Of a DNA stretch of 64,000 nucleotides, positions 7,390 through 58,536 are shown piece by piece. This DNA is from Acanthococcus lagerstroemiae (taxonomy: Eukaryota; Arthropoda; Insecta; Hemiptera; Eriococcidae). The stretch covers positions 22,217,312 through 22,281,311 of the forward strand of contig CM063113.1 in the NCBI GenBank assembly GCA_031841125.1, in the 5' to 3' direction. Numbering within the stretch: the first letter of the stretch is position 1; each line of letters starts with the position of its first letter. The notes below the pieces were generated by a model. That model made no database searches and was not told where the DNA came from. It worked only from the letters and a program-made list of their open reading frames with translations. The position numbers were made by a program, and so were the translations under genes.

Positions 7390-9034
7390 AGTAATAAAAC
7401 GAATGTAAATCGCGGATGAGCTTCGCGCTCTTTTCCCCCTTTCTGCCCCTACTGCCGTCGTACCATGACCACCTGTGGAGCCGACCAGGGGAGCCTGTCC
7501 TAGTTATGGGGAGTCATCGCCCTAGACCTACTGCGTGAATTCTCATACACGCTCGGCATCCTCCTTGGCCCGCGACACTTTGCCGGCGAACTGGATCATC
7601 GCTGACCAATTCTGCGGGCTAGCCAGCATCACTTCAAACATTGTCTCGGGAGTGATGTGGCTGCCTCAGACGCCTCGAGCGCTGCTTGTGCATCATTCCA
7701 CACAGTGCAGCAAAAGATGGTATGCTGTCCGCCGTGGAACTTAGCTAGATAATGCGTACCTTGTTACAACGGTTAAAATGACCGTTGCAGCATCCCCAAT
7801 GAGCATTTGCGTAAGATGGTACGTCAGCTCACTGTGCCGCTGGGAAAGCCATGCATCGAGATCGTGTACTAGCCTCGTGGTCCAGCGGCCATGGACGGAC
7901 TCTTAAAGGCGAGCCACCCACTCTTGAAGTATCTGCCGCAGACTTCTCTCTCAATTTGTTCCTCTGCTCCTTTCTTTTTTCTATCAGCTGGAGAGAGTTT
8001 CTGGAAGCGCGATCAAGTGAAGCGTTCCCCCTGGTCAGCAGATCAATAGGAGGCATTCGAGCTAGTACAAGGGCCGTTTCATATGAGACAATTCTATACG
8101 CGCAGATTATGCGTAGTGCCCGTAATCCGCTGGACCCTTCCTATGTCTTCTCTGTTCTCGCGGAATGTCGCGACTGACGCCAAACTGGAGGCCCCACAGA
8201 GAAGAACCGAGTGAATTACTGTCGAATACTACCTTCTTCGATTCTCACTCAGCTCCCGGAGATTCGGCATAAGCTGACGCAACACCATCAGCGTCCGCTC
8301 TACTTTCTCTGCCATTGTAAAGAGATGCGGTTTCCAACACAGCTCACCTAGGTACATCATCCGGGGTTGTATGGGTACCGGTTCGCTCAATACCGCTAGA
8401 TCAAACGGCTGTGACCTGCCCCCATTCCCTCTTGGGAAAGGACGAATTCTGTCTCCTGGGCAGCCACCTCTGAGCCATTCACCTGCATCTAGCGAGACAC
8501 CTACCATCTCGACGCTGAGCGTGGAACTGCTGCGAATTTCCTGCTCTGACCTCTCCTCTATAAAAAGGAGAGTGTTGTCGGCAAAGCAGATTGCCTGGGT
8601 TCCTCTCGAAAGTGTAAGCCGTAGAACCCCATCAAAAGACAAGTTTCACAACCCAGATCCTAAGACCGATCCCTGGGGTACACCCGGCAAAATGATCTTC
8701 AGAACCTAGCGGCCTTCTTCGTCTATGTATGCTATTTTACTGTCCACCAGGTAGTTCCTGATGATCACTAATAGGTACCCGAAAGATCCCACTCATGTAT
8801 CGCTTTCAGGATACGCTTCCGAGGCAGTATATTGAAAGCGCCTCTCACGTCAAGACCAACGGCTGCACATAAACCACTTTGGCTGCATACAGTGTTGACG
8901 ATCTTTTGCACACACAACACTGAGTTATTGGTCGACCGACCCGCTTGAAACCCGTAAGACTGAGATTTCGACAGTCCACCTTCAGAAGCGGTATGTGCTT
9001 CCATGCAATAACCCGCTCCAGTAACTTGCCTATG
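7390..9034 (-). mobile_element. R1-like non-LTR retrotransposon, RT to C-terminus
   Basis: Reading leftward from 9034 the frames give GKLLERVIAW, SYGFQAGRSTNNSVLCVQ, GLDVRGAFN (first catalytic block), GVPQGSVLG at about 8650-8690, and CFADNTLLF (8574-8585), where the canonical D-D has become D-N. Next come MMYLGELCWKPHLFTMAEK, a basic helical region, ELTYHLTQMLIG, and FCCTVWNDAQAALE, followed by ETMFEVMLASPQNWSAMIQ and KVSRAKEDAERV, with a stop at 7543-7545. This order and the C-terminal zinc-knuckle/R-A-K-E pattern fit R1-clade ORF2. Several frameshifts make it dead. Its RT is split by a MITE at 9035-9425. Confidence 0.85.
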
Positions 9035-9425
9035 CAGGGTTGCCACTTTTTTTCAGGATTGGTTTTCCCTGACTTTTCCCGGTTTTCCAGGCCAACTTTT
9101 CCAATTTTCCCTGACTTTTTTACAGGATTCCGAGAAAGCCCAGAGGGAGGAGAGTCACAGAAATTTTTTACAATACAGATTTTTAAAAAATCGCTATCGA
9201 GAAGAAGAAGGTACAGATGTAATTTATGTAATATTTTTCAATATTAGAAATACTTAAAGAAAGTTGGAGTCCATTCCAACAGATAAAAAAAGTTTACTCT
9301 GATAAAATACGAACTCGTTTGTTATTTTCAGAAAATTTCCCTGACTTCAATGAAAATTCCCTGACTTTTCCCTGACTGACCAAATTCCCTGGCTTTTCCC
9401 GGTTTTCCAGAAAGTGCCAACCCTG
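9035..9425. mobile_element. 391-bp MITE, CAGGGTTGCCACTTT ends, 5-bp TSD CTATG
   Basis: The left end is CAGGGTTGCCACTTT and the right end is AAAGTGCCAACCCTG. The flanks are the direct repeat CTATG at 9030-9034 and 9426-9430. The interior is built of CCCTGACTTTTCCC-like repeats in both arms and has no coding capacity. The insertion interrupts the RT domain of the R1-like element, whose reading continues on either side, so the empty site is known. Confidence 0.93.
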
Positions 9426-9430
9426 CTATG

Positions 9431-9541
9431 TCATCCAGTAGTCATAGGAGGAGGTACGAGGGGGCACGTCCTCGGGTATGTCATTGCCTTTGAGGAGCAG
9501 GACCAGCCTCGCTGTCTTCTATATCGCCAGGAAAACTCGAA
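9431..9541 (-). mobile_element. R1-like retrotransposon, RT segment upstream of the MITE
   Basis: On the minus strand this reads KTARLVLLLKGNDIPEDVP followed by TSSYDYW-like residues. This is the R1-type block immediately before the G-K-L-L-E-R motif found on the other side of the MITE. A stop lies just before KTAR, and no further upstream homology is recognisable beyond about 9541. Confidence 0.75.
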
Positions 9542-10244
9542 ACCGTTTCGTCGAATGTATCGACAACGCAAGTGAAATACATACTTCTATTCTTCAAGTC
9601 ATGGACAGTAACCTAATAATGCGATAGATTCCTACTGCCACTGTCCGTCGCGCATGCTTTTCGGCACGTGCGACCAGTCTCCGACTTACTCAGCCATCAC
9701 TCTCGTGAAAGCAGAATATAAGGACGAACATACGTATATTCTGCACAATGCAAACGGGCACAGGCACCGAACTACAACTTCGAATGTTTCCAACATCGAC
9801 AATTAACACACCCGGGAGGTTCTAAACTTTTTATTATCGCCGTACACGAACGAGCATCTCTGTCCCGAGTTGTCCGCTCAATAAATAAATAAAAAAAAAG
9901 TACAAGAGATAGACGCGTACATGACAGCATTCTCCAAGTAGAATGCCGCGAGTTATGTTCCAACTTTGTGAACGGCGGTTACAAAATCTTCTGCGGCTGA
10001 GTGGTGGAAATAACCATAAAAAATTCAACGTATACGTCATCCTGTAACAGAAATTTTTCGCGCGAATGGAAACACCTCAAAGATTTAAAAACCCCGTTCA
10101 TTGCCTACATAAAAAGAAAGAAGAAGAAGAAAAAAAAACACCTATAATTCCGTGCCCTGGTTTACGATTTCTCAATAATTCATGGTTTCTTTGCCCCCAC
10201 CCCTCCACACCTAAGTATTAAGTACGCGTAGTTTTTACGTCGTT
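9542..10244. other. No gene recognised
   Basis: Mixed sequence with an A/G-rich run at about 10112-10140. Short open readings only. Confidence 0.5.
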
Positions 10245-11240
10245 TGTTATACACGTTCGTTATATACAACGGCATTCTGCACTCGCGCAGCAGCCCAGGT
10301 TTTCGTAATGCGATCATCATTTTTGGTTTTCGAAGTGCCTGGTGAGACGCGACCGAATTTTAATACGAAAAATGACAGCGGCGCGGGCTCGCTGATGCGA
10401 AGGACCATCTGTGCTCCGGAGCGAGTCACGAACGCGTTATAAAAGTTGATTTGAAGACGTGAACATCACACGGTATGAACGGAGAGCGTCTTCGAGAGCC
10501 CACTTTCCGTCTCGCCTATATTCGCTTCGGATATTACACGAAAAATGGCGTTTTCATGGCTGTCCCGAAATTTCGAACGCAGCGCGAATCCGCGACCTCG
10601 GTCATTTTCATTGGCCGGGCTGGCGTGACTTCGAAATTTCGGCTTAAGCCGCGCGTTAATTTCATTTTCTCCCTGCGCTGTCAATCAAGAGGCATTCTTC
10701 GGTCGTGCCAACCTCGCCTCGGCTTCACAAAGCGGCAGTATTAAATTCCAAACTTCGTTAAAGAAAAGTTACGATACAGTGTGCAACGCCGTTCGCACAC
10801 ACACCCACGCATTCAGCAGCACCGAGTACGCTCTGAATGCGATATCATTCCTGGAATACATCTGCACTTGCTGTATGTAGGCCGTTACATCGGAATTTCA
10901 GCAAGCTAAATTGTCGAACGTGTAACTTCGATGTCGTACAGCCGCTTCAATCAAAGGATGATTCAGAAATGTATCAGAAAGGTACGTACGCATAACACAC
11001 GCACGCACCAGATACGTACATGGGCATCGGTACGCTCAGAAAGTCTCGACCTTCATGGAGAAGATGCAGACAAGGTCAAGGCAGAGGGCCGACAGCAAAG
11101 CTCGGCGCACACCATCGAGCACAACAACTCTGTACCGTGTACCATCCTAGAAAAGCTGCGGCGGAACGCCCGGCAGGGCTCCCCAAAATGTTGCCTTTTG
11201 CTGCTGAAAATTCTGGGTCTCCCGCTCACCATTTAAATGT
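10245..11240. other. CpG-rich unique intronic block, function unknown
   Basis: The stretch is richer in G, C and CpG than its surroundings and has none of the repeats seen elsewhere. It has open readings on both strands but no recognisable domain. It could be a conserved regulatory block or an alternative exon. A weak candidate donor (AAAG-GTACGT) lies at about 10980. Confidence 0.3.
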
Positions 11241-11925
11241 CTAGTTTGACTGAATGAGTGGTAAATTTCTTTCTCAAAATTTTCAAACTTTTGACGCATC
11301 TTATCAGTTTCCCTTCATCCCAACAAGACAACAACATGACCTCACCAGAACGTCACACCTCATGGTTACACATATCAAAGACTAAGGTATCCTTTCTAAG
11401 ACTTCATGTATGTTAAGAAACACGAACTCACGAATTATATGTCAGTCCTACATTTACAAACCCAATGAATGAATGAATACATTCAAGTACTTTTTCCAAG
11501 TCATTTCTATTATTCCTGTCAAAACTTTAAACTTTCATACCTCAGAAGTTCAACTTTTTCAGCTATATTTGTACACATAAACTTTCTCAGGAACTGCATT
11601 AACATATTTCTGCTCGTTCTATTCAGCCGTTTACTTGCAGCTAAAAAAATACGACTCTTTTTTGTACCTGCCAAGTATGTACATAATAATTTGTAGATTT
11701 ATACAACGGTAAGTTCCTGGGATTGCCTAACCGGCCCGCCGTGAAAACACACTGAATTCTTTTTAACACTTCTAGAAGAAGCGGAATAATAACTTTTCAA
11801 CGTCTCCATTAACTTCCTGTAGCTCAGAGATTCCATGTAATTTTACACTTTCTGAAGAGGGTGTTGTTGGCAGGAAATAGTGAAATACGATATTTGCGTC
11901 ACAGCGCCTTCATATTCATAATCGC
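11241..11925. other. No gene recognised
   Basis: AT-rich sequence without recognisable elements. Confidence 0.5.
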
Positions 11926-12172
11926 CCGCCTGACATTTGCCGACAGAAATCCGACAATGCCAAAACTGTCAATTCTGATATTATAATCGACACAAATGAC
12001 AATTGCTTCAGCCAATCAGAATGCTGCTATGCACTTTCTGACGCAAAAACACGGTTCTAAACCGGCAACATACTGGCGAAGCAGGCGGGGCATGCTTCCT
12101 TTGTCAGAAATTTGACGGTCCGACAGTGTCATTACTGTTGGCCGACAGAAATTTCATCAGACGGGCATATTT
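11926..12172. mobile_element. Short TIR-type element, GCCCGCCTGA ends
   Basis: GCCCGCCTGACATTTGCCGAC near the left end is mirrored by GGCCGACAGAAATTTCATCA-GACGGGC at the right. CCGACAGAAAT occurs in both arms, and CTGTCGG/CCGACAG motifs recur inside. About 247 bp, non-coding. I could not settle a target-site duplication. Confidence 0.45.
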
Positions 12173-12213
12173 CACTTTCTTTTCCACACACGACAAATTT
12201 TCAGTGGACTATT

Positions 12214-13335
12214 CAGGCGCGGATTCAAGGGGGGCACAGGAGATATCTCCTCCCACCTAACTCCAAGAAAAAGTTTAAAAAAAAGGAAGACAAAAAAGAA
12301 AGAAAAAGGAAAGGCCGAAGAGAGAAAGCTACGAGCATTAATGAACTTCCCATTATTTTTAATAAGAGACCAAATTTCTATTTTTGGTCTAGAAACTTGT
12401 CTTCAAAAAAACAGTAAATACCACTGACGGCTTGGTATGAGAATGAACGGATATTTGCCAATCGAAGCTCTGACGAATGCAAAGATGAAACTTGTCTGCC
12501 AACGTTGCACGGATTTCCTTGTTGGATTATGTTGCTTGAGTGACATTTTATCCCTCAAGCAGTCCCTGAGCGTTATTTTACATAAAAAATCAATTGATGT
12601 ATCACGAGCGTCGAATCTTGTTCGCTCCATAATTGAAGTTATGGAAGTCAAACATCAGGAAGCGACAGGAGATTTTAATACCCTTTTTACTCGAATAACA
12701 GCAACGGGTGAAAAATGAGGGATTGAAATAACAAAACCTCGTACTTGCGGTCGCACAGACATTGAAGAATATTATCGAATTTCAATAAACATGCCTCCAC
12801 TAGATCAAGTTATTCAAAACTTGATGGAGCGATTTTCCACAGAAACATTAGACTCCTTCAACTTATCTAACTTGATAGTTGATACCTAAAAAAATAACTG
12901 AATTCGAAAGTAGCGAAATTCTTTTTTTTGGTTTCTATGCTTGCTGGGCGATTTGGAAGACTATCAAATCTGCCTACAAACAACTTCGCCACTGATGGCA
13001 GAATTAGATAGTCGGAAAAACCACCGCATGAGAATGGATGAGGCTGAACTCGAGTCAGATGCAATTGATGCTCTCAAATCATGCGAGGAAGACATCTACC
13101 CAACAATTTCAAAACTGCTTTAAATTTTATGCACTCTGCCAGTAACAAACGCTTCTGCAGAAAGATCGTTTTCTCCTCTGAAGCTTCTCAAAACGTGGCT
13201 ACAGACCACAATGCTCGAAGGACGACTCACAGGACTTGCTTTATTAAACTGTCACTATGATTAGAATATAAAACCCAAAAATGTAGTTGAACGTTTTTCT
13301 AAATTGTATAAAAATAATAAATGGGGCGTAACACG
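12214..13335 (+). pseudogene. hAT transposase relic (ZMYM-like/DUF4371 type)
   Basis: A hAT-like left end (CAGGCGCGGATTCAAGG at 12214, followed by the palindrome AGGAGATATCTCCT) precedes the coding relic. From 12437 the reading includes KLVCQRCTDFLVGLC and EVKHQEATGDFNTLF, passes one in-frame TGA (12716-12718), and continues as TDIEEYYRISINMPPLDQVI and NLMERFS. After several breaks comes EEDIYPTISKLL, a stop, then LPVTNASAERSFSPLKLLK and GRLTGLALLNCHYD. The last part is the hAT C-terminal dimerisation domain (P-V-T-x-A-x-x-E-R-x-F-S-x-L-x-x-L-K). Few stops over about 800 bp suggest moderate age. No right end was found before the next element at 13425. Confidence 0.85.
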
Positions 13336-13424
13336 TTATGAGAAAATTTGTTCATATAATTAAAATTATTGTCTTCTATTTCATTAATAAGACCCTCTTA
13401 GCTATCAATTGACTGAAGTTTAAA

Positions 13425-14388
13425 TGAGGAGCGATTTTCCAAAACGGACTCTGTCCACTTTTGCATTTTTTACAGGAGGCGATAAAAACTTGGTACACGG
13501 AGTTAGGTGATTTAAAAATCTTGGGCGACGGATTGGTTGCCTAGTAGAACACTTACTGGAATACCTCTCGTTCAAACATTTCGTTTTTGTTGCGCCATGT
13601 GTTCGTGAATGCGTCACAAAGTTGGGTCTTACCTAGACGGAGGCCGTTTTGGAATGATTTTTTATGCCGAATTCGGAAACAGAATGTTAAGTGAATGTTT
13701 AAAAATCATTTCAAAACGGCCTGTATCTTTCTGAAAAGAGCCTCGAACATAATGGAATGCTGTAAAATTGATTATTCAGCAAAATCGAAGTAAAAATCCA
13801 CTAAATTGATGTTTTATGAAATATCAAAAAATTAGTAAAATTTAAATTTTATGTTTAAAAAAGTATCAAAGTACAGGCAAAAATAAAATAAATTACTCGC
13901 GACGTCGTTTCTTCGAGGTGGCATCACGCTTTTCAACATTTTGTCTTTTAATGGATGCCTTCTTTGCTGCTGGTGTTTCTGTAAGTTCAGGTTCTACAGC
14001 AACTTTTGGTTTTGCAACAGCTTTTCGTTGTGACGTCGGTTTTTCCGAAGGGTTTTATGCAGTACTTTTTCGAGGAGAATCCTTGGGTTCAACGATTTTG
14101 GTTTTTTATATTATGATGATGGTTTTAAATCGATAGCCCAAGTCAGATCGTCTTTCCTCGCAGATGGTTTATTCAATTCAGTATGATAAAAGTTTTTTTG
14201 GATTAGGGCCATTTTGGAACAACTTTTTTTAAATGTGAAATTCTTGTGGCTTTCTATAGAGGTTCAAACGCTGCAAATAGGTAGTTTGATGATGCAGGTA
14301 TTTGCCTGACAGTATCCACCACCAGATGGCGCCAAAAAACGAGATTCGAAAAAAATGGACCTAGTCCGGTTTGGAAAATCGCTCCTCA
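13425..14388. mobile_element. 964-bp TIR element, TGAGGAGCGATTTTCCAAA ends
   Basis: The left end is TGAGGAGCGATTTTCCAAAA and the right end reads as its inverse, with CGGACT and GTCCA also mirrored. On the minus strand, 14110-13890 holds a Lys/Arg-rich reading ending KKRRRE and a stop, with KPTSQRKAVAKPKV upstream. This looks like the basic tail of a mobile-element protein. No catalytic domain remains. A diverged relative of the right end lies at about 31990-32080. No clear TSD. Confidence 0.65.
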
Positions 14389-16153: not shown

Positions 16154-16448
16154 GTCCACACGAGGATGATTTGCGTGCTCTACTTGGATGATCAGCTTGG
16201 GTTGACCAGCCGTGAATGAAAATCTGTCCATGTCCACACTTGTTCAGCTCTTTGCATTCAGCCACACTTTCAAGAAAATGGCAGAATAATGCTGAATGAA
16301 TATTGAAAACATCCACACTGTTTATCATCTTTTGAACAGACCTATATCAGGTCGATCAAAGATGAAAGACTGATTGTGGCTGTTCGGCTCCAATTAGCTG
16401 ATCATCTCAACGTCCACACTAACTTCCGCTGATCGTCTTCGTGTGGAC
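16154..16448. mobile_element. 295-bp MITE with GTCCACACGARGAYGAT ends
   Basis: GTCCACACGAGGATGAT at 16154-16170 is mirrored by ATCGTCTTCGTGTGGAC at 16432-16448. CCACAC motifs and GATCA/TGATC blocks recur internally in both orientations. It is non-coding and the TSD is unclear. Confidence 0.65.
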
Positions 16449-16728
16449 CCAACTTTAAGGGAACGTACGAAATAAATCTACTCTCATTTGGAATAAAAAC
16501 AGTTCCATCGGAATTTAACAGCACGTTTGATCAAATTCCATGAGGCTGTCTGCAAACGCTTGTCGGTGGATATATCTGGTGGACAAGGGGTCGTAAGACC
16601 GATAACCTTCAAACAAATTAATAAATAAATAAACAGAAACAAGAAGTCATGCTATCTGGCATGTGGAGCAATTGCTCCGCGCTTCATACGGGTTTGGTGC
16701 CAATGCTGGTGAAAGACAAAAGTTTCAA

Positions 16729-17340: not shown

Positions 17341-17652
17341 TTATTCAGGGTGTCTACCGGGTCCAAATTTTCCAATTTCTTGACTTTTCCTAGACCTTTT
17401 CTCACTTTTTTCATAACCGTTTTACACACATACAACAATTATCTTATTCGTAGAACCTTACCAAGATGGGGGGGGGGGGCCTCACAATAAATGAATGCTA
17501 GAAATGCAAAGTATGCTAAGTGCCAAAAATCAAATTTCACAGGAGCGGAAAAAACAAATTTGCAGTGCATATAACGCAATCTGATAACGTCGTGTTGTTC
17601 AGCGTAGACTTGGATAGCACTTTGCATGGTTTGCCTGAAAATAAGGTTATGG

Positions 17653-17805
17653 AAGTGGCGTAGCGTGGGGGGGGGCACGTACCCCAGTATTTTTACATAG
17701 TCCTTTAATATCGGCGACTTTTAGAAAATACCTCAATTTTCGACTTTTTCTCCCTTGAAAACCTTATTGTGTCCCCCCTTTGGGAAACCCCTAGCTACGC
17801 CACTG
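17653..17805. mobile_element. 153-bp hAT-type MITE, 8-bp TSD GGTTATGG
   Basis: The left end is AAGTGGCGTAGC (first C mutated to A) and the right end is GCTACGCCACTG. GGTTATGG flanks it at 17645-17652 and 17806-17813. Poly-G and poly-C blocks sit just inside the termini. An 8-bp duplication with a CAGTGGCG end is characteristic of hAT. It is nested in the 17346-18976 element. Confidence 0.93.
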
Positions 17806-17927
17806 GGTTATGGAGTTACAGACTACGAAATCTTCTGGTGGAAATATGAACCTCTTTGAATAGTGTTCCGAAACTTCACTGAAAAATACTATGAAACAGG
17901 ATATTATGTAATCATCTGAAAATAATT

Positions 17928-18775
17928 AAGGTAAAGTGACCTAATTCCACCTAGTGCCTAATTCCAACCACTTTCAATATATGGTCTGTTGATGACGCTA
18001 CCTAGCATGCGTTTGGGGAACTACGTTTCTTAAAGTGACAAACGATGACGTACAACACGTCGGGAGTCGCAAGCCAAATAGAAAAAGAATTATCAACAAA
18101 GAATTATTTCGTAAAATTGCGACTTCCAAAGTGTATTTTCAGAAAAATTTCGAGTGAATTTTTTTGAAGGTGTTTCTCGTTAAATGGGGTGAATACATAT
18201 ATTGATATATTATATTTGCGGTATTAATTTGTAAAAGCTGATCACAAAAGAACTATTTATTTCATCATTTTTAAAACTCAGAGGAGGTCCTAATTCCATC
18301 TACCAACAAATGTGTAATTACGCGTCTTCCGTCGATAGCGAAGATTTTAAGTCGTTAAATTCTAATTATGATGAAGAATGTTGAAATTCTGTTGTTGTTT
18401 TTTACTAAATTTTGTTTTTTACTAAGCTCAAAAATGCTCATACGTGGCATGTGATACTTTGATAATGAGTGAAGAGTTTATTACTTTTGTATTTAACAAA
18501 TAAACATTGTTTTTTTTTTTGAGATTTACAACGATTCTTTTTAAATTAAATTGGGAGGATGGAATTAGGCACCCCATTTTGAAAATTGACTATATTTCTC
18601 ATCACACTAGAATTCAAATATTGTTTTCTGAGGAAGGTATTTTGGCAAGGTATCATAGTAAATGTATCTTCAATAGTAACTTTATCACCTTGTATTGCAA
18701 ACTTTCAAAAAATCACACTTCAAATACAAAAAAAATTTTTGAAAAAAAGTGGTTGGAATTAGGTCGCCTTACCTT
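17928..18775. mobile_element. 848-bp nested TIR element, AAGGTAAAGTGACCTAATTCC ends
   Basis: AAGGTAAAGTGACCTAATTCC at the left is mirrored by GGAATTAGGTCGCCTTACCTT at the right. CCTAATTCCA motifs recur internally at about 17960, 18290 and 18560, the last inverted. It is AT-rich without a transposase. It sits inside the 17346-18976 element; no clean TSD was identified. Confidence 0.75.
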
Positions 18776-18985
18776 ACGTTACTTTAAATTTACTTGTAAT
18801 TTTAAAAAAAAAATTCGTGATACCTAATAATTTTGAGGAAACTTAAATGAAAAATTTATGACTTTTCATGACCACTATTCAAAATACTTGACTTTTCCTT
18901 TACTTCCTTGACTTTCTTTGACCACTCTCCAAAATACTTGACTTTTCCTTGACTTCCTTGACCGGTAGACATCCTGTTATTAATA

Positions 18986-19487
18986 CAAGGTGTCTACAGA
19001 AATTGAAAAGTAAAAGTGAAGTACTTTTTCAAGACCCTTTGCAGGACCGTAGCCGACACATTTTCCACCTTTTCCTCAAGCGTGCAAATCTTTTTTTTTG
19101 TTTCCGATTGTTTTATACCCTTTACCACTCACTCCTGTTTGCTCTCTCCACTTCCCTCCTCCTTGTGAATATAGATCCTGCGATACACTTTTTAATGACC
19201 AATCATAGGAATGACAAAAAATTCATTTTCAAGCATTAAAAACAAATTTATTATCTGTAAAATAAATTTACAATGACTTGAAATTTTTGGAAGAAAACTA
19301 AAAGGAACAAATAACTTAGAAGAGGATTTTTAAATTGAAGTTTTAGACACGTGTGGTTTTGAAAATATTAACGAAAATGAAGAACTTTTCAATTTTTTTT
19401 TTTAAATTTTAGCACTTTTTAGGACTTTTAGAACCTACTTTCGAAATTCAGAACTTGAAGGACTTTTCAGCACCTGTAGACACCCTG
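18986..19487. mobile_element. 502-bp MITE, CARGGTGTCTACAG ends, 5-bp TSD TAATA
   Basis: CAAGGTGTCTACAG at the left and CTGTAGACACCCTG at the right are inverted repeats. TAATA flanks at 18981-18985 and 19488-19492. It abuts the TTATT duplication of the preceding element, sharing base 18981, so two relatives inserted side by side. Non-coding. Confidence 0.93.
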
Positions 19488-20465: not shown

Positions 20466-22627
20466 ATTAGGGTGGCACTTATTTACTCTTGGTGAAAGAA
20501 AATTTCGTATTTTCGATCTGGCCATCCTGCAGTTTGGTTCCATAGGCTGAAAAAACGTTTTCTGCGAAGTCTGGGTTAAGTCGAAAAAGGTTTGGAATTT
20601 AGGTTTCAGTCGTTGGGGGAGCATTCCTATTTTAGCCTGAAATGATTTAAATTCTCCGAACAGAGGCTGAATCAATTTCAGGGGTATCGAAAAAGGTTAA
20701 CCCGTGCCACAAGGTGGGAGAAGTTCTCATGAAGGTGGGAGAAGTTCTCATGAAAATGAACATTGATTTTTGGAACTCAAGTTTCAGTCGTCGGGGGAGC
20801 ATTCCCATTTTAGCTTGAAAATGATTTAATTTTCCGAATGGAGGCTGAATTCATTTCAGGGGTTATTTCCATCTCCCCTAAACCATTCACGCTCTACGGA
20901 GGACTAATTTCCATTTACTCCGATTTTCCTCAATTTCTACTTTTTTTACGACAAAAATTCGAGTTTTTGGGTCGCTGAATCCGTTTTTGGGGTTATTTCT
21001 CCTTTCCTCTATCCTTGAGACTCCACGGGAGCTAATCTTCAATTACTCCGACTTCCCTGGAATATAAACTTTTTAGTGTCGCTGAATCTGTTTCCAGGAT
21101 TATTTCCGCTCTCCTCTTCGCCCTTGAGTCTCCAAGGGAATTGATCCCATTTCCTCAACAGTTGAATCCTCTATGTAATTAGGATTTTGATTCCTTGAAT
21201 TCATTTTCAAATTTGTGTCATTCCTCTGCCATATCTTTTTAGGGTTCCCACATAAGGGTAACCTGCGACTAATTATTAAATTTTAAAATTCTTTAAGCAC
21301 AGTGAATGTGTAGGGGTTTGTGGGTTGCTGACTTGAAAATGAAGAAGGTGTATCATATTGCACATTATATATTAGCACACCATACCTAATGCATTTTACT
21401 CATCTTGTATACGAAATTAATCATTAATAGAACAAGATTTGGGATATGCAGTTAAATTTTGCTCTTCGAGGTCACACTGGTTGTGAGAATACCGAATTTG
21501 AAAAATCGATGTTAATTTCCATAATAACTTCATTCCCTTGCAACGTAAGTTAACCTTTTCTGATTTTCCTCAAATTTTGCTTAAAATATTTTATCAACTC
21601 ATGGAATCTCTCCACGGGATGATCCACTAAAAAAAAAATCAGAAGTCGCGAGTAAAGACCACATTCGTGCATGCTAATTTCAGTAACAGGGTGTCTCCCA
21701 AATACGAATTTTCCACTAGTATGACTTTTGTATGACCTTTTTTCGGACTATTTTCATGTCTGAACAAAAGAATCCAATAATATCCAAAAGTCTGGATCCC
21801 GAGACCGAGCCAACAGTTTAGAAGATAATAATACCTTTGGTACTTCTTTAAAACCGTCAATTTTTATGTTTCATAAATTTAAGTTATACTCAAAATTTCG
21901 ATTTCATCTGGTAAACGTTTTCACTAGTGGAACTAAATTTAGACAGGGCCTTTTCCCTTAAGTATTGACGTAACTCCCCCTAGGTTTAAACGATCCAGAA
22001 TCCTCTTCAGGTTTACAAATTTACGTCAAATAGCAGAGGAGACAGAAGAAAGGAACTCAGAAACGGATTCAGATATTCAGAAAACACAACTGACAACGCA
22101 ATTCGGAAATTCGATTAATTGAAGATCAGCTTCCGGTAGTGGAGTCTCAAGGGTAGATGAGAGGGGGGAAATGACCCTTAAAACGGATTCAGCGACCAGA
22201 AAAATTGTATTAAAGAACTTGAAAATCGGGGAAACTAAAGTAATTGAAAATTTCCCCTCCCCCGTGGAAACTCAAGAAAGTACACTAAAAAAGAAAAAAC
22301 TCCTGAAACATGAAACAAGACTCATCCCCCACGCCAACAAAAAAAAAATTCTAAACGAAAATCACTTCTATGCTCATATGAGAAGCCTCCCTCCGCAACT
22401 GAAACTCAAATCCCAAAAATTAATGGTAATTTCCATAAGAACTTCTCCCCCTTTGCGGCATTGGTTAACCTTTCTTTAAGAACTTCTCCCCCTTTGCGGC
22501 ATTGGTTAACCTTTCTTGATTTTGCTCACACTTAGCAGATTTTTGATCTTCAAATAGTTGGAACCGATCTAGGGAGTGGCCTATTAGGTAATTAGAATCA
22601 GGAATCGGAAACAAAGGCCACCCTAAT
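20466..22627. mobile_element. 2.16-kb foldback element with tandem-repeat arms
   Basis: ATTAGGGTGGC opens the left end and GCCACCCTAAT closes the right. The left arm is made of degenerate units of about 120 bp containing ATTTCCATTTACTCCGATTTTC-like, TCGCTGAATCCGTTT-like and GAGGCTCCACAGGG-like blocks. The right arm carries the same blocks in reverse (GGATTCAGCGAC, CTCAAG-GTAGATGAG). AAGGTGGGAGAAGTTCTCATG is doubled in the left arm, and AAGAACTTCTCCCCCTTTGC is doubled in the right (22435-22516). No protein remains. Confidence 0.75.
21687..21860 (+). mobile_element. 5' end of a CAGGGTGTCT element nested in the foldback
   Basis: CAGGGTGTCTCCCAAATACG followed by TTTTCCACTAGTATGAC matches the body of the element at 50195-50448. 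No matching right end is present, so it is truncated or broken. The right limit is approximate. Confidence 0.55.
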
Positions 22628-32554: not shown

Positions 32555-32884
32555 CAGGGTGTTTACGGGATTTAGGAAACAAAATAGCATGCTTTTTCAT
32601 GACTATTATGGGGGATATAAAAAGGAAGTGGAGGGGGGGAACTCGTCGCTTCACGCCTCACCGGGGGCTCAATACAGAGCACGCTAAACTCCCACAATAA
32701 ACATTCAATCAAATTTTTTTTTCACATCAAATGAATAAAACTGATTCTTTTTCTGGTAATGGAAGCATATTGTGAACTATGACATATCATGACGTTTTCG
32801 AGTTTTGGTTGAAATATCATGACCTTCCAAAACTTTCACGACAAATTTTTGAAATCATGACTTTTCAAGCCAGTAGACATCCTG
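32555..32884. mobile_element. 330-bp MITE, CAGGGTGTTTAC ends, near-TSD CAATT/TAATT
   Basis: CAGGGTGTTTACGGG at the left is mirrored by CCAGTAGACATCCTG at the right. The flanks are CAATT (32550-32554) and TAATT (32885-32889), differing in one base. TTTTCATGACTAT and CATGACTTTTC repeats are present in the arms, and a poly-G tract is internal. Same group as 17346 and 18986. Confidence 0.8.
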
Positions 32885-49289: not shown

Positions 49290-49897
49290 GAGTTTCGATT
49301 TTTACCAGTACTTCTTTTCAATGATCTACCGCCTCCAATCTGCGAGATGGACCAAATTTGCACATAACCTTTCTAGTTCTACTAATTAATAGTAAAAAAA
49401 GTCATATTCAAATTTTGCCTACCTATGAAATTGAAGGTGCTAAAACACTTACAATACTTTGATCCTTTATAGAGCCTTCAGTAGGCAGATAGGCAAAATT
49501 TGTACATAATTCATTTTGTAGATCTCAATAATTACTTTTTAAGGTTCTACGTGAATTTTGCCGATCTTCCATACTAAAGGCTCTATAAAGGGACAAAGTA
49601 TTGTAAGTGCTTCAGTGCCTTCAATTTCACAGATAGGCAAAACTTGTAGATGAACTAATTCAAAGTTAGCGATGAATACTATTAAAAAGGATATGTGAAA
49701 ATTTTGGATAACCGGCATTTTTAAGACGCTGTGTGACATTCAATTTTCAGCCCCGATAGTACGCAACTTCAAGGACAAATAATTCCTTCAGAAAAATTAA
49801 AAAAAAAATTAACGCTTTTTTCCTTAACGAAAGGCAACGTTTCAACTAGGTCGCACTCAAAAACTCGAAATTTTTTTGGCCTATGCATGACGATCCG
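49290..49897 (+). repeat. Double-hairpin module M, copy 2
   Basis: Same architecture as 45628-46327: a GTTTCGATTTTTACCAGTAC-like start, hairpin 1 at about 49408-49503, hairpin 2 at about 49553-49645, then GACATTCAATTTTCAGCCCC and ACTTCAAGGACAAAT. Followed by satellite S. Confidence 0.75.
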
Positions 49898-49914
49898 ACA
49901 CCTAATGTGAATTC

Positions 49915-50560
49915 CCCAGCCCTCTTTCCCTCTCTAAGGACTTCCCCAAAGGTTTCAGAAAAGACTATCAGTGAGGTGCAATTTCACTGAAGAAATTACA
50001 CCTTGAATCGAGTTCCCTCTACCGAGGTACTTAAACGGCGAAACATTTCAATCTTAAAAATGGCAAAAATGTATCCCAGGTGAAATTTGATAATACTGAT
50101 CCCCCCCCCCCTCCATCCATCCAGTACTTCCTCAAAAACTTCAAAAAAGTAGATCAATGATGCTCAGTTTAATTGAAAGAAAAACACACATCGGATCGGA
50201 ATTTTCCAAAAGTATGACCTTTGTATGACTTTGGTGACATTTTTGTACTCGTACAACCTTTTTTAGAAGCTTAAACAATAACAAACGAATTACTGCAAAG
50301 AATATTGCAAAAAACACAATTTTTCGATTAAATTTTGATTTGGCCATAGTTATTTTGATAAGAAATATTGCGATTGTTTAGGAAGCATTACCAAATTTGT
50401 AAGCAATCAGAGACAATCGTATAACTTGTATGACCGGTAGACACCCTGAAACTTGACACTACTGGTGCCCTCCCCATTATTTCTTTCAAAACTCCGGGAA
50501 ATGTACCATAAAGGTGTACCTTTTTGAAGAATTTACGCTTCAAATCGAGTTCCCTTCCAA
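49915..50560 (+). repeat. Degenerate satellite S, array 2, split by a MITE
   Basis: Units carry GAATCGAGTTCCCTCTACCG, GCGAAACATTTCAATCTT and CCAGTACTTCCTCAAAAACT blocks like array 1, with a poly-C run at 50101-50110. The array is broken at 50195-50448 and resumes with CAAATCGAGTTCCCTTCC. Confidence 0.6.
50195..50448 (+). mobile_element. Left-truncated CAGGGTGTCT-group element
   Basis: GAATTTTCCAAAAGTATGAC matches the body of the 21687 element, and the right end ACCGGTAGACACCCTG (to 50448) matches the group terminus. The left CAGGGTGTCTCCC is missing. It lies within satellite S. Confidence 0.65.
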
Positions 50561-51712
50561 GGATGGGTGGACGTAAGTGCTAGGCGATAAAAAAAGCAGC
50601 AGCAAAGAGGGGATGCCTTCAAATCAACCTCAACGGATGCCGCGTAGCGCAGGATAGCTTTACGGAGTGCCATTCGCACTGACCTGGGCATTGGATTAGT
50701 CTGGCACGGCCCATCAAGAATATCCAGCCACTGATGCCTCAACTTTAAGACAGCCAAAAAGAGAGGCGATCAAGATAAATTCGATCACATTTTGGGCCCG
50801 GCCCAAGGCTAATCAGCCATCCGGAAAGGATTCGTAGTGACTTATCACACTTGGCATCGCATATGCAACTAGGGTACCGGGCCACACGACTGACAACTGC
50901 TATATGCATCACCGACGGGCTAGCTCGCTCTGGTTGCACCCACCGTGCACCCTGCCCAACTCTTCGCAATTTTTGTACGCCTATATACGTAGTCATGCTG
51001 TACGTACAATTTGTACATGCATACTGCTGTGTGCATGTATTTCAATTATTTTTTGAACGAACAAACGAAGGTACTCTTGGCGAAACGTACACACAAATAC
51101 AAATGTATGTAGCTGCGCGTACACACGCCAGACATGGGAGCACATCTAACGAATTCAGCCGCGTTAATTACTGCTCCGGCGGCCTCTAAACTCGAGTGGC
51201 GTTTAAAATAATGAATAATTAAACGCCAGAAATCATAGTACGTATATACGAATTTTCGTGGCTGAAAATACGAAAATTCACACGTGCTTCCCGGAATAAC
51301 ACCCGTGTTGTATACATGTACATCGACTACATAAAAACGTATTACCATTTTGCGTTCTAAGTACTCGGCTAGATAATAATTAGCTGATATTTGTTATGTA
51401 AACTATTATTAGGTGTATACAGAGTTCGGAGACGGAGAATACGTTTCTGTTGTGGTTTTTCACGCTTGCATTATGTAACCGGGTACACATATATACAGAC
51501 GACGCTCGTGTGTACTACATAGAAAACGAGCGAAATATTATCAGGAAACTCAGCCATTCGGTGTCCTTCGAGGAAGAACAATCTCGACCAAGGGCGCCAC
51601 ATACATGTGTACCCGGTTTCCTCTTCGCATACTGGCGAATACAGGATATACCGTGTCTGATGCCAATCGCAAATCCAAACCTAGCCATCTACATGAAATA
51701 ATATTAACCAGA
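50561..51712. other. Unique CpG-richer block, no gene recognised
   Basis: Overlapping open readings on both strands, none recognisable. GGCGTTTAAA...TTTAA-ACGCC at about 51197-51228 and TACGAATTTTCG...CGAAAATTC at about 51247-51279 are short dyads. Confidence 0.4.
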
Positions 51713-51713
51713 C

Positions 51714-51851
51714 CAGTGGCGTAGTTATACTTTTTTCTTGGAGGGGTGGGAGGAGGAGGAATGTGTATCAATCTTTGAAAATCTTTCTTTATTTATTTTT
51801 TCAGTGGCGTAGTTATATCAAAATCTCGCTCCCTGTATGACTATACCACTG
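51714..51851. mobile_element. hAT-like MITE, CAGTGGCGTAGTTATA ends, double left end
   Basis: CAGTGGCGTAGTTATA occurs at 51714 and again at 51803. The inverse TATGACTATACCACTG ends at 51851. Either a copy inserted next to another, or the left end duplicated. Flanking 8-mers do not match, so the boundaries are imperfect. Confidence 0.55.
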
Positions 51852-51871
51852 GACTAAGCAATATCTGCAGG

Positions 51872-51974
51872 GTGGCCACTCAAACATTTCCTTTTTAAAA
51901 AATTGAAAAAAAGCGACCAAAATTCACAGAAAAGTGACCTAAACCTGACCAAACTTTAAAATTCTATATGTAGT
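51872..51974 (+). mobile_element. Left end of a CAGGGTGGCCACT element
   Basis: CAGGGTGGCCACTCAAAC with AAGTGACC/GACCAAA repeats resembles the ends of the CAGGGT group, but no right end is found nearby. The right limit is arbitrary. Confidence 0.35.
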
Positions 51975-52054
51975 GTGTGCCAATTCACAATTTCTTCATT
52001 CTGTAGCCGAAAGCGCTCTGGGTTACAGAAGGAAGAAATTGTGAATTGGCACAC
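51975..52054. repeat. 80-bp hairpin with 31-bp stem
   Basis: Arms at 51975-52005 and 52024-52054 (GTGTGCCAATTCACAATTTC and its inverse) pair with a single mismatch. The 18-nt loop is GCCGAAAGCGCTCTGGGT. The size matches a precursor microRNA or small-RNA hairpin, but a tiny MITE or a chance palindrome is equally possible. Confidence 0.85.
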
Positions 52055-52317
52055 CATACACACACAATTTACCAAGTTCACTCACACTCCACCATGGGCA
52101 CCAAAATTTCAAAAGTTTTAGCCTATTGTGTACCAATTTTTGTGGGGCAGCGTACTTTGTCGGAACAGAATTCTAATTATTATCTTTCTCCATAAAGCAC
52201 GCTAAACTCAAAAAGCAATCATTTGAAGTGAAAAGAAAGAAAAAAAACTATTAATGCACGAATTTGAAAAATAATGTACAGATTAGGGTACTTTTCAAAC
52301 CCCGATTCATATTCCAA

Positions 52318-53035
52318 AATAAATGTTCCGACATTGGGTCTAACTTTGTTCCATTCAGTCCAAAAATGAACCTCTATCAATATATTTTGTCGTAAGAATG
52401 ATCTTGACCCATGCCACTTTTCTTCCGAGGTTTTGATTTTTACCAGTATTTTATTCAATGGTCTCCGCCTTCAATATATGAGATGAACCAAATTGACACA
52501 TAACCTTTTTAATAGTATTCATCGCGAACTCCAAATTAGTTCATATAAAAAATTAGCCTATCTGTGAAATTTAAGGCGCTATAAAGCAACAAAATATTAT
52601 AAGAACTTTAGCGCCTTCAATATTGCAGACAGGCAAAATTCGTACAGATCTCATTTTGTATATCTCAATCATTACTACTGTTAAGGTTATATATGAATTT
52701 TGCCTATCTGCTATACTGAAGGCGCTATAAAGCAACAGAGTATTGTACGTGCTTCAGCGCCTTCAATTTCACCGATAGGCAAAATTTGTATATGAACTAA
52801 TTTAAAGTTAGCCGTGAATACTATTAAAGAGGCTATGTAAAAATTTTAGAAAATCGGAATTTTTAAGGCGCTGTGGGACATTCAGTTTTCAGCACTACAG
52901 TACATAACTTCAAGGACGAATCCCTCGGGGAAAATTTACAAATTAAAAAGAAATGTAAAACATTTTTCCCCACTAAGGCAACTTTTTTCCTTGGTCACGT
53001 TAGAAATTTCGAAGAAAAAAAATTGACGATCCACC
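52318..53035 (+). repeat. Double-hairpin module M, copy 3 (longest)
   Basis: It starts TTCCGACATTGGGTCTAAC and AATGAACCTCTATCAATAT, which match copy 1 in inverse. Hairpin 1 lies at about 52545-52640, hairpin 2 at about 52688-52790. It ends with CATTCAGTTTTCAGCACTAC, ACTTCAAGGACGAAT and CACGTTAGAAATTTCG. Confidence 0.75.
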
Positions 53036-53419
53036 CTACTCCTCAATCGATTTACAATCAAGAGGAGACAGCGACTGCGTTCAATCATTTCAAATACCAT
53101 CACGTTCAAATTCATCGACCCCGTTATTCGTGAAGACTCACAAAGCCAAAGGTCAATAGGTACCTGTTTTATTTATGAAATAAAATCGTTTGAACTAACT
53201 TTTCCTTTCAAGATAGTTACACGTACCTAGCGTAAATGTAAACGGAAACAATATTTAAATCATCTTGTTTTTCGAACTGCTATGAACGCATTAATGTACA
53301 TGGCTGTCAACGAAACCCTGAAGTTTCTGTAATTCCGACGGATTTCAGCAATATGCAAAAATGTAATTGCCTTATTTCGAACATCTGAGTTCTACTAGTC
53401 TTACGCAAACATTGGACAA
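53036..53419. other. No gene recognised
   Basis: AT-rich sequence with no element or exon. Confidence 0.5.
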
Positions 53420-53439
53420 AAAATACAACACACTTCTCC

Positions 53440-53960
53440 TACCGTAAAAGCTCAAATATTGAAGAGCAAAAGCGTTCTCACAAAATGGGGGTTTCCGATT
53501 GACAAAGTTGCAGCCGTTGTTACCGACAGCGCCGCGAATATCAAGAAAGCCTCCAAAACTTTTTTTGGTAACAAAACATTTGGGATGCCGTCTGTGAAGG
53601 CATGACCTATGTAGGAAAAATTTTTTTTTTTTTTGTTGAGAATTTGTAGAGAAGAATTTCGGTAACATTTTAAGACCAAGAGCGAGTTTCTAGCCTCAAC
53701 AGATGGCCCAATACAAGCAGCCGAAGTTTGCAGGAACAAAATTATCATTTCGAGAAAAACGCGTTTGAAGTTTATGACTCGGACAATACAATAAAAAATC
53801 GATTTCACAGCTTCTACCAAATCGATTCAGCTGAAATTTGGATATGATGTTTCCGAAAGACAGATGAAGCAGTCCTGAAAGGTCCATACAACATCATCCA
53901 TACGTTGGTTGTTGAGTTACTGCAATTTGAAGGTGGAGATGTCTGCAAGTGAATGCTTCA
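53440..53960 (+). pseudogene. hAT transposase relic, catalytic-region block
   Basis: A plus-strand frame reads KWGFPIDKVAAVVTDSAANI and KKASKTFFGNKTFGM before a stop. This matches the W-x-I-x-D-K-V-x-x-V-V-T-D-x-A-x-N block around the second catalytic Asp of hAT transposases. Downstream frames are broken; possible remnants of the following region extend to about 53960. TATCGAT-rich sequence at 54008-54043 resembles the subterminal repeats of the 36792 element, so it may be the coding partner of that family. Confidence 0.7.
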
Positions 53961-55530
53961 GATTGTGAATCAATAACAAACTATTGAAAGATATGTCTGC
54001 CGATGGTTATCGATAGTAATATCGACAGTTATTGATAGTATCGATTGTAAAACCATTTCTAATAAGAACAAAACAACAGGCCGACTTAGGTCATGTTTTT
54101 TGCCATAGCTCACTTTTACTTTGTTCGCCCCTCCTACATGAAACAACACATCGAGAAGGTAAAATTCATATTGTGCATTGTTACCAAACGTTTCTAGAAT
54201 GATTTTCCGTAAAAACCTGGAAATCGACTTTTTTTGACTGCAATCCGTAATTTTTCTATAGCGCCAAATTACATTTTCCGGCATAGGTCATGTTTTCACA
54301 GACGGCATCACATTTGTACTATTATGGCCATCTTTTGAACATCGTCCTACGCCACGTATTCAACAAAAAGTGAGAAATTTATCGATTCTGTGTAAACTAC
54401 GACAAAGGATAATTCTTTTAAAGAAAATATGTTTAGAGAAAATTAATACGATTCGGTTTACGCTGCTTATCTGTTTACTCTTGAAATCGAAGTTTTGTCG
54501 TACCGAGAAAGGAAAGAAAATGATACCATTGAAGAATATTTTAGCGTGTGATGCGAATCAAAAAATGGACTGTCAAGATTAAAAAATTGCATATTCACAA
54601 AAAAAACAAAAAAAAAACCCTACACAAGAGATTATACAACGAAGCGGCATTCCACTGGTTCGAACCATTGTTAAGGAAAGAGCGAGAGGATAGACAGGGT
54701 GGACAAAAGAAAGATCAAGATCTTTAAACCACGGGCGAGGGTTGCCGAAGACAAGGTCATGAGAAAGAAATCGAAAGGCAACTGAAACAGGCTGACAGCG
54801 AAAAGAAAGATTTCATAGACCATACATTCCTGGCATAGGCGAAGAAGATAGGTAAGCCGAGTCGCTACAAATATGTTCGACGGAGGAATCGAGTGCCACT
54901 TTTTCACAGGGTGTTTTATGCATAATATGAAAACCAAACAAATTATAAAACGACATTATTCATAATTTTTCACAGACTTTGAATTGTACATCAGCAATCT
55001 ACAAATATCCTAAAGAATACAACGTGTAAATTGGACGTTTACAATTCAAAATAAGCATAACGCACGGGAGACAAATGGTAAAAATACAGTGTGGGTACAA
55101 TTTTTTTTTTTCATTAAATATACCTGATATCTCTACTATAGTTTTTTTTACAGCAATTAGACGCTTTAGCGGTTTCAACCCTTAAAATGCCAGCCAGTTT
55201 CTAATAATTTCATCAAGAATTGCCAAATACAGCGCCGCAATATACAGAGCCTGACAAAAAATTTTACGGGTCTGATCTTCCTGTCACTGAAGTTGCCACG
55301 AACAAGAAGTTTCTGCCGAAAAGACACACGTAGCACACACGTTAAAATCTTGAAACAGTGTATCAACGCATGATACATTAGTTCTATTACCATGAAAATA
55401 TGTACATAGCTCATTTGTCCGAATGATACACAAGTTGTGTGTTCATATACCGAAATATTTTCCCGACTGCAAACAAAGTGACACAGTGTGACTCATAATA
55501 GAAAGGTACAAGTGTCGTTGTTTGAGTGTC
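53961..55530. other. No gene; TATCGAT cluster at 54008-54043
   Basis: The cluster has four or five TATCGAT/ATCGATA-like motifs and may be a hAT subterminal region. The remaining sequence has only short open readings. Confidence 0.45.
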
Positions 55531-55716
55531 TATGCGAGGAGCGAAACAAAGGGGGGTGATTGGTGTTACACCCCCCAGGGTCGTCAGTGCAGTTGGAAAA
55601 TTCGGCAAATCGTAAAGTTTACTGGCCACACGGCAAAATATTCATTTTCAATTCATTTTATTCGGTAAATTTTCAGTTGTCACCCCCCTAGAAAAAACAG
55701 CTAGTTTCGCCCCTGG
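55531..55716. mobile_element. Small hAT-like MITE, GGAGCGAAAC / GTTTCGCCCCTGG
   Basis: GAGGAGCGAAAC-AAAGGGGGGT on the left is mirrored by CACCCCCC-TAG...TAGTTTCGCCCCTGG on the right, with poly-G and poly-C just inside the ends as in the other hAT-type MITEs here. The left terminus is decayed and no TSD can be read. Confidence 0.45.
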
Positions 55717-56339
55717 TCTTTGCAAAACAAGTCTAAAGATTTAAAGGAGTATCTTGCCTCGAGTAGGCCATATAAGGACAAATAAATAAATTTCTTTTTA
55801 TAATCAACTACGAAGTCTACATCGTGGTAATGACACGAAGTTCATACATCCAATTTCTGATGAGTTGAAGTAACACACATTCATTTTTGAGTGTTTTCTT
55901 TGCCTATGTGAGTCCGTGAAACACAAGAAGGAACGCAGTATGACTCATCATCTACATAAAAGCCACAGGTTGGTGCAAATAATGGCAACTGTCTGTCTTT
56001 TCAACGAACGTCTGGTAAATAAATACCGGAGGTGACTATCGAGTCGAAGAGAAAGGCCGGTAACGGAAAAATTAAGGAGAGAACGGGAATTTTGGTTGAC
56101 CGAAGAGATTTCATTTAAAATTACGTTAACTAACTAATTTTGGTTACTGAACAATATGAACATATGTAGAAACCTTCTGTGGATGCGAGGGTCGGATCGC
56201 AGTGCGCACCAGGATTCGAAGTCTGGCCAGACATGCAAAACTGGGAAGTATGACCTCATGACCTGTCCCGTGGCTTCGATTCAAGCCACACTGCCTTGTC
56301 AGCCAGTGCTAGGTATCACAATTAGACACGCCGCCGCTA
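55717..56339. other. No gene recognised
   Basis: Unique-looking sequence with short open readings. Confidence 0.45.
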
Positions 56340-56480
56340 ATCCACCATGACCACACTTGTGCGGAGTTAGGGGAACCTTCGCCTTAGAGCCTACGTACTC
56401 TACATCCTGAGGACGGGCCGCCCTGCTACGTGTGACCGCTCACGTGAGGGTTGCAAGTCGAATTCTCATCTGAACTTCTC
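56340..56480 (-). mobile_element. Possible 3'-end scrap of the R1-like family
   Basis: CCACCATGACCACACTTGTGCGGAG then TTAGGGGAACCTTCGCCTTAGAGCCTAC parallels ACCATGACCACCTGTGGAG and TTATGGGGAGTCATCGCCCTAGACCTAC at 7461-7531, the region after the R1-like stop. The matches are short and imperfect. Confidence 0.4.
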
Positions 56481-56596
56481 GTTCTGCATAGCGTACGTCG
56501 ATACCTGGCAATACAGTTCGAGTATGCGCAATTCTTTAGCCTGGTTAATATAATAAAGCAATTCGGTATCTAAGAGGAGGTAGCCTAACCAGGATT

Positions 56597-56639
56597 GAGG
56601 GAGAGATGAGAGAGAGAGGAGAGAGAGAGAGAGAGAGAA
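56597..56639. repeat. (GA)n microsatellite
   Basis: Almost uninterrupted GA dinucleotides. No gene lies nearby. Confidence 0.9.
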
Positions 56640-56667
56640 AACTCACATTTGAACCATACATCTGAAC

Positions 56668-57040
56668 AGAAATGAGACTAAGGTCACTTACTGGCTATCA
56701 GGTACCTAATGACTGGTACAAACATGATCATGAATGACTCATTGGTTCAACGTTAGCTTTCGGTTAACAGGCTCAAGCGTCCCGTATGAGGAGTTACAAT
56801 AGAGACCGGACCTTTTTTACCTTATCTACTTCATCGTTTCGGCTATTAACAATAGCGAAACACTATCGCTATCAGTCGAAGTCGAATTTTCCGGTTACAG
56901 GCTGAAGTGCTTTGCTCGGTGAAAGCATTCGAGGCTGTCCTTTCCGGGATATTAACTGATCGCATGAATTCAATATTTCGACTATTAATTATAGTGGGCT
57001 ACTATAATAATTAATGTCGAAGTTGGAATTTTTTCGACAA
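56668..57040 (+). repeat. Dispersed repeat, copy 2 (see 4004-4335)
   Basis: Aligned blocks in the same order as copy 1: ATGAGAC, GACTGGTACAA, ATGACTCATTGGTT, CAGGCTCAAGCG, CCTTTTTTACCTTAT, CGAAACACTA, GAGGCTGTC and ATATTTCGACTATTAATTA. Slightly longer than copy 1. Confidence 0.6.
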
Positions 57041-57257
57041 GGGTGTATTACCTGCTCTTCAGTCAGGCACGAGCCAGAGAAATGACAATCGCTGCAGCAA
57101 ATGCTATCTGCAGTGTTTCCGAACATAATGAAGCCATGCATCCCAAAATTAGGCAACTAGAATTTACAATTTCTTTACAGTCTGAAAATTCATAGTGGTA
57201 CAGCTGCCTCTATTGGGTCATAAAAGGAGTGCGAAAATCTATTTTTACATATATTCA

Positions 57258-57948
57258 CAGTGGCGGATCCAGGGGGGGGGCTAAAGGGGCTATAGCCCCC
57301 CCCCCAAAAAAAAAAAAATTCACTCGCTTTTCCACTTATTTTAGCCACCGATGTTTTTAATGACAGTAGCGCTCATACAGCACAGTTCGTGAATACATAT
57401 CGCGTAATCAATGAATCAACATTATCACTTATCAACAATCATGCATTCATGCTTGAATTCAACGGTTCAAAGGAAAATATAGAGAAATAATTCCTTTAGA
57501 AAAATTGATTCCAAAGAATGCACACATGATTACGGAGAGTTTACCGCAGCTATTAGCAGCAGCACGGATTTACAGAAATGATTTACCATTCATCACTGAG
57601 ACTGAACTCTGCAGCGAAATAGAGTTGTGGCAGCAGCGATGGAAAAATGATAAGATACTGCCACAGAGTGCGGTAGAAGCAATGGACTATTACGTTTTTT
57701 ACCCAAATATTAAAATATTGCTCAACTTGCTTGCTGTGATTCCGGTAACTTCGGCAACACCTTAACGAACCTTTTCTGCATTAAGAAGGTTGAAAACATA
57801 TTTAAGAGCAACTATGTTAGAAACCAGATTGAATGGCTTAGCGCTCGCGAATATCCATAAAGATATTACCATTTCCGCCGAAGAATGTGTGGATGCATTT
57901 ATTGCATTAAAACCTCGACGAATGGAGGTAGAAAATTGGAATATATAA
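57258..57948 (+). pseudogene. hAT element relic with transposase C-terminus (ZMYM1-like)
   Basis: The left end CAGTGGCGGATCCAGG at 57258 is followed by a G-rich run and the palindrome GGGGCTATAGCCCC, then by a large internal deletion. From 57505 one frame reads PQLLAAARIYRNDLPF, ELWQQRWKNDKILPQSA and LLAVIPVTSATP. One frame slip later it continues RTFSALRRLKTYLRATMLE, LNGLALANIHKDI and ALKPRRMEVENWNI, then a stop near 57946. This is the hAT C-terminal dimerisation domain. No right terminus is visible. Confidence 0.85.
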
Positions 57949-58166
57949 AATAAAATAAATAAAAAAATTTCCATGTGCTCTTTTTTTCTCCAACATTTAC
58001 CCCCATCCAGATATTCCAGTTCTAGCCTTTGTGTTGAAATGACACATGAGGCTCATGCATTCAAATGACGCACATTCATTTCGAAAGGCGTGTCTGCCTG
58101 CACGCACACGCGCACACACCAAAATTATACACAAGCTTGTGCGTTAAAACGACGCACATCCCACTA

Positions 58167-58531
58167 CAAGGTGTCTATAAAAATGGAAAAATATAAATTC
58201 CTAACTTTTTCCAAACTTTTTCTTTTCTCTTCTTTAAACCTTTACAGTATAGGCAGTATATATTTATGTTTATACTACTATACGCTATGGTTAAAATGAA
58301 CCGAAATTTGAACTTGATTTTTGGGTGAAAGCATTAGGAAGGTGTTCACAAATATACATATAGAGTGCTGAAGTAAAATTAAACGACAAAAAATTTTCCG
58401 TGAGTTCATTCTTTGTTTTTTTTCCAAACTTCCTAAAAATATTGTTGAATTTCCTGACTATTTACTAACTTCCTTACCTACTTTTCAAATTCCTGACTTT
58501 TTCCAAACTTTCCAAACCTGTAGACACCTTG
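58167..58531. mobile_element. 365-bp MITE, CAAGGTGTCTA ends, 5-bp TSD CACTA
   Basis: CAAGGTGTCTATAAAAATGG on the left is mirrored by CTGTAGACACCTTG on the right. CACTA flanks at 58162-58166 and 58532-58536. Both arms contain TCCTAACTTTTTCCAAACTT-like repeats. No coding capacity. Same group as 18986-19487. Confidence 0.93.
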
Positions 58532-58536
58532 CACTA

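Follow-up and report, generated by a model that had tools for sequence, protein, structure and literature searches.

Short inverted-repeat elements with 5-bp target duplications in Acanthococcus lagerstroemiae, probably hAT5-like and moved in trans

Which transposase mobilises a group of short elements with terminal inverted repeats (TIRs), CAGGG-type ends and 5-bp target-site duplications (TSDs) is the question raised by a 64,000-nucleotide stretch of the hemipteran Acanthococcus lagerstroemiae (contig CM063113.1 of assembly GCA_031841125.1, positions 22,217,312 to 22,281,311; 39% G+C), hereafter referred to as the window, which is contained in a host assembly of 658 Mb. It was found that these elements are real, related to one another and share a 5-bp stagger, and that they form one group, as the initial annotation of the window had proposed, distinct from the hAT-type elements of the same genome with CAGTGGCG ends and 8-bp duplications. 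They are probably non-autonomous, hAT5-like miniature inverted-repeat transposable elements (MITEs) moved in trans, a likeness drawn from TSD length and hAT-like ends and not from a hAT5 end consensus. Membership in hAT5 is unproven, since a link to a hAT transposase was sought and not found.

The exact 5-bp repeats reported earlier around four elements of the window were read directly from the sequence, and the flanks of a fifth agree at four of five bases. Since two random 5-mers of the window agree with a probability of about 0.0015, four exact matches out of five lie far above chance. The ends were compared with 20 random sequences generated with the window's dinucleotide transitions: CARGGTGTCTAC occurs, at no more than one mismatch, at 11 sites versus 0.15 per random sequence, one of these sites (832) being tied to no element, and CAGGGTTGCCAC occurs at 3 sites, again versus 0.15. 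The termini read CAGGG or CAAGG in the main types, with a degenerate CAGGA at 18976 and 32884, and the degenerate TGACTTTTCC-like repeats described in the element arms are indeed present. Additionally, the truncated relatives placed at 21687 and 50195 were found as described, the former retaining its left end, with nothing convincing as a right end up to about 30000, the latter lacking a left end but intact on the right, at 50448. The members and the elements nested in one of them are as follows.

9035..9425 (+): MITE of 391 bp, ends CAGGGTTGCCAC / GTGCCAACCCTG, TSD CTATG; abundant family with many near-identical copies
17346..18976 (+): MITE of about 400 bp, ends CAGGGTGTCTACCGGG / CCGGTAGACATCCTG, TSD TTATT; 1631 bp through nested insertions
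17494..17876 (borders approximate, strand not assigned): piece of another repeat, one with long inverted arms in its copies, inserted into the 17346 element
17653..17805: hAT-type MITE of 153 bp, AAGTGGCGTAG...CTACGCCACTG, 8-bp TSD GGTTATGG; lies inside the first insert and serves as an internal control
17928..18774 (borders approximate): second nested inverted-repeat element in the 17346 element, about 847 bp, GGTAAAGTGACCTAATTCC-like ends
18986..19487 (+): MITE of 502 bp, ends CAAGGTGTCTAC / GTAGACACCCTG, TSD TAATA
21687..21767 (+): truncated relative with the left end, CAGGGTGTCTCC...TATGACTTTTGTATGACC
32555..32884 (+): MITE of 330 bp, degenerate ends, flanks CAATT/TAATT
50199..50448 (+; start approximate): relative of the 21687 type, right end CCGGTAGACACCCTG intact, left end lost
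58167..58531 (+): MITE of 365 bp, ends CAAGGTGTCTAT / GTAGACACCTTG, TSD CACTA

The same TSD length accompanies different end types, CARGGTGTCTAC and CAGGGTTGCCAC being present in several or many copies and CAGGGTGGCCAC in one. At 51868, the window has a further end-like sequence, CAGGGTGGCCAC, which differs from CAGGGTTGCCAC at one position and is of the end type of L037:9176-9608; the window scan showed no partner end nearby.

The initial annotation had described 17346..18976 as a single 1,631-bp element. Its ends and its duplication stood, its length did not: a 398-bp relative (L037:813-1210), encountered in a sample of 200 kb taken at round-number positions of the host assembly, aligns to 17346-17493, 17877-17928 and 18774-18976. 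On this alignment, the element is not a long member of the group and reads as a roughly 400-bp MITE interrupted by two inserts, the first being a 383-bp piece of another repeat. An open frame inside the 17346 element was rejected as a transposase remnant, since it belongs to that inserted repeat. The copies of this repeat (L089-L094; window 17492-17876) can be aligned with one another in either orientation for hundreds of bases and share a conserved open-looking stretch, often with one TAG. Three successive insertions can thus be read here, the 8-bp-TSD element lying in the repeat and the repeat in the 5-bp-TSD MITE.

The duplication length was then tabulated over 37 elements of the host assembly, window included, of which 29 carry an exact 5-bp repeat, 2 a 6-bp repeat and none an 8-bp repeat. 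This pool comprises 28 copies of the 9035 family (the window copy included and counted once), the 4 other window elements, 3 elements of the 200-kb sample and two members of 721 and 724 bp; 27 of the 37 are therefore best-scoring copies of one family. The 28 copies were read out of 40 scored among 1658 first-look candidates, all 40 being 97-100% identical and hence the best-scoring set, which biases low their mean divergence of 0.6% from the consensus. Exact 5-bp repeats flank 22 of these 28 copies, and 8-bp repeats none. In the 200-kb sample, the TSD is an exact 5 bp in two of the three paired elements and agrees at 4/5 bases in the third, and four more end-like matches have no partner; a relative of the 18986 element found in this sample (L031:2842-3215) is flanked by TGTAT. 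Exact 5-bp TSDs were also read in both the 721-bp and the 724-bp member. On the other hand, CAGTGGCG-ended elements gave 8 bp in three of three cases within 310 kb of the same genome's DNA (the window, the 200-kb sample and other loci, with one small overlap), which indicates that the reading method separates the two classes. The targets are AT-rich: across the five upstream positions of the 28 copies, G or C accounts for 42 of 140 bases.

The group is also abundant. The exact 18-mers of the 17346 family occur 323 times for the right end and 156 times for the left end, and each reversed pattern zero times, while a crude extrapolation from the three paired elements in 200 kb gives roughly ten thousand elements per genome. 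When these 18-mers were paired on contigs C1-C3, a search in which any change in either 18-mer causes a copy to be missed and which covered 100 of the 323 right ends and 47 of the 156 left ends, overlapping in range, 16 of the 18 pairs obtained measured 328-401 bp and the other two 721 and 724 bp; none exceeded 724 bp at distances up to 20 kb. One family thus spans several size classes.

The initial annotation had set hAT aside on the ground that 5 bp is not its duplication length. hAT termini carry A at position 2 and G at position 5, as do the CAGGG and CAAGG ends of the main types. The designations hAT5 and hAT6 reportedly go back to Kapitonov and Jurka (Repbase Reports, 2007). In the excerpted text of PMC12730594, these names are given to hAT families whose target duplications measure 5 and 6 bp, respectively, and an excerpt of PMC9004415 describes hAT5 as unusual for its 5-bp duplications. 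The exclusion of hAT is therefore not valid, and the list of known duplication lengths behind it was incomplete, because the hAT5 group exists. hAT5, already known from earlier work, is a rare branch of a common superfamily; among six whitefly genomes, DNA-hAT5 is the most widespread DNA transposon type, according to an excerpt of PMC10357772. The elements share with hAT5 the 5-bp TSDs, and their CA..G ends are hAT-like.

Canonical hAT elements of the same genome, such as 17653-17805, are likewise short TIR elements with CAG-type ends, but they differ in the sequence of their ends and in their 8-bp TSDs. Resemblance to the CARGG termini extends to published hAT ends, as judged from excerpts: Mar, a hAT MITE of Drosophila (PMC3517528), has ends CAG(G/A)GGTAGGC but, unlike the elements described here, belongs to the Buster group and makes 8-bp duplications, and the BuT2 primers CAGTGCTGCC (PMC3942097) resemble C-A-R-G-G. 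Other sources, also in excerpt, have no bearing on these ends, namely PMC6004678, in which an amoeba 'hAT-5' has 8-bp TSDs, PMC3630058, in which the 5-bp TSD belongs to a retroelement, PMC9017028 and PMC12220107. A full-text literature search by the end sequences gave no transposon title among the matches listed.

Under a hAT5-like origin, the elements would be internal-deletion derivatives that kept the terminal arms and lost any recognisable gene. A hAT5-like transposase encoded elsewhere would bind the repeated TGACTTTTCC-like arm motifs together with the CARGG ends, cut the element out and insert it at a target cleaved with a 5-bp offset between the strands, and repair of the staggered target would then leave the 5-bp duplication.

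The elements themselves offer little coding content. Frames are short, with at most 83 residues in five elements listed separately, one of them truncated, and the consensus of the 28 9035-family copies contains an open stretch of about 112 codons. A 74-residue piece of that frame matched no Pfam family above the cut-off (best DUF5903, E 0.14), and among proteins of comparable length, to which the search was restricted, it had no homologue. For the interior of the 724-bp copy, 5 complete or almost complete copies were recovered along with partial ones, none of them split by a long insert among the 40 scored of 46 candidates. In the 724-bp member (L102:225-565, minus strand), a TATA-like sequence, an initiator-like stretch and AATAAA were noticed by eye, as if they were the flanks of a deleted gene. 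Scans of viral contigs with three end patterns returned 0, 1 and 0 stretches, the single one (L095, 55% G+C) being judged a chance result, since it has loose-pattern matches only and no convincing partner end.

As for the longer coding element with the same termini that the initial annotation had envisaged, a fragment with one such end exists, at locus L104; in the C-terminal part read there, no transposase domain was found, and the paired elements stop at 724 bp. The L104 element starts with CAGGGTGTCTACTAGAATGTG and adjoins a 17346-family MITE. Its opposite strand shows a stop codon, a poly(A)-like signal (CAATAAAA) and a broken C-terminal peptide, pieced from three frames, with the look of a coiled coil. 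Counting itself, this peptide is matched at five places in the assembly; of the four other sites, three share 63-68% of 58-60 residues with it and one gives a weak, partial match, and these other genomic matches support the view that it represents real coding sequence.

The enzyme was also sought from the side of hAT. A search of the assembly with the dimerisation domain PF05699 yielded 150 scored matches among 2179 first-look candidates, and 46 of the 150 were inspected for the elements' ends on the downstream side, over about 0.9 kb for 40 and 0.55 kb for 6 (range roughly 0.4-0.9 kb). Such a reading can reveal ends, because CAGTGGCGTAGCC right ends were visible at L080, L083 and L098 in the same view; ends lying farther downstream than the stretch read would escape it. 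In eight of the 46 loci a loose pattern was matched with 2 mismatches, a result judged to be chance.

Several of these results weigh against a hAT5-like origin. The elements' ends, at no more than one mismatch, were present downstream of none of the 46 hAT loci, a set that is partly redundant (L049/L050/L051 and L080/L081/L083/L098 are close relatives). The L104 peptide is not a typical hAT C-terminus, all its Pfam matches falling below the cut-off (best E 0.033), and none of its five matches coincides with any of the 150 hAT domains listed. Within the 9035 family, two of the 28 copies (L008, L013) have exact 6-bp repeats, and in four no exact repeat exceeds one base, a single base agreeing in one of them. 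The absence of the ends at hAT loci and the features of L104, the sole coding element found with such an end, would instead favour an undescribed transposase superfamily with a 5-bp target stagger and with coding relatives whose protein ends in a coiled coil. This explanation appears unlikely, the hAT5-like one remaining the preferred reading: a 5-bp group with hAT-like ends is already known, the hAT check covered 46 of the 150 scored matches with lower-scoring domains outside the list, the L104 peptide may be a weakly conserved hAT5 transposase tail or an accessory protein, and the L104 element is known from one end. With similarly low probability, the enzyme might be that coiled-coil protein itself, supplied by rare long CAGGGTGTCTAC-ended relatives (the L104 fragment and 4 more loci); the elements would then form a lineage of their own, its hAT-like ends and 5-bp stagger having arisen by convergence.

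Two known superfamilies fit considerably less well. Elements of the PIF/Harbinger-related two-gene type, with an unusual 5-bp stagger and the L104 peptide as their accessory Myb/SANT-like protein, would find some support in the coiled-coil C-termini that such accessory proteins of Harbinger-type elements can have. PIF/Harbinger and its relatives, however, make 0-, 2- or 3-bp duplications in the excerpted text of PMC12730594, versus 5 bp here, which renders this origin very improbable. The case for Transib-like elements is slighter still and hardly credible. Their duplication length of 5 bp agrees, but Transib/RAG ends start with CAC and Transib prefers GC-rich targets, in contrast to the CARGG ends and AT-rich targets of these elements; the earlier dismissal of Transib by its ends was thus upheld.

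Two further stretches of the window were recorded. At 57259-57960, what looks by eye like a hAT transposase C-terminus, decayed and broken in frame (AVEAMDYY..YPNIKILLNLLAVIPVTSATP / RTFSALRRLKTYLRATMLETRLNGLALANIH), resembles the C-terminus at L080; its first part has no Pfam match, and a CAGTGGCGGATCCAG-like terminus lies on its left. At 5331-5624 lies a reverse transcriptase fragment (PF00078, E 4.4e-08), perhaps the remnant of a LINE.

Taken at its most ordinary, the group would represent a clean case of 5-bp-stagger, hAT-like elements that share a genome with 8-bp hAT elements, and could help in asking what sets the stagger length; duplication length by itself does not exclude hAT. If, on the other hand, the L104 protein were a non-hAT transposase, many copies in this genome would be the work of an additional superfamily.

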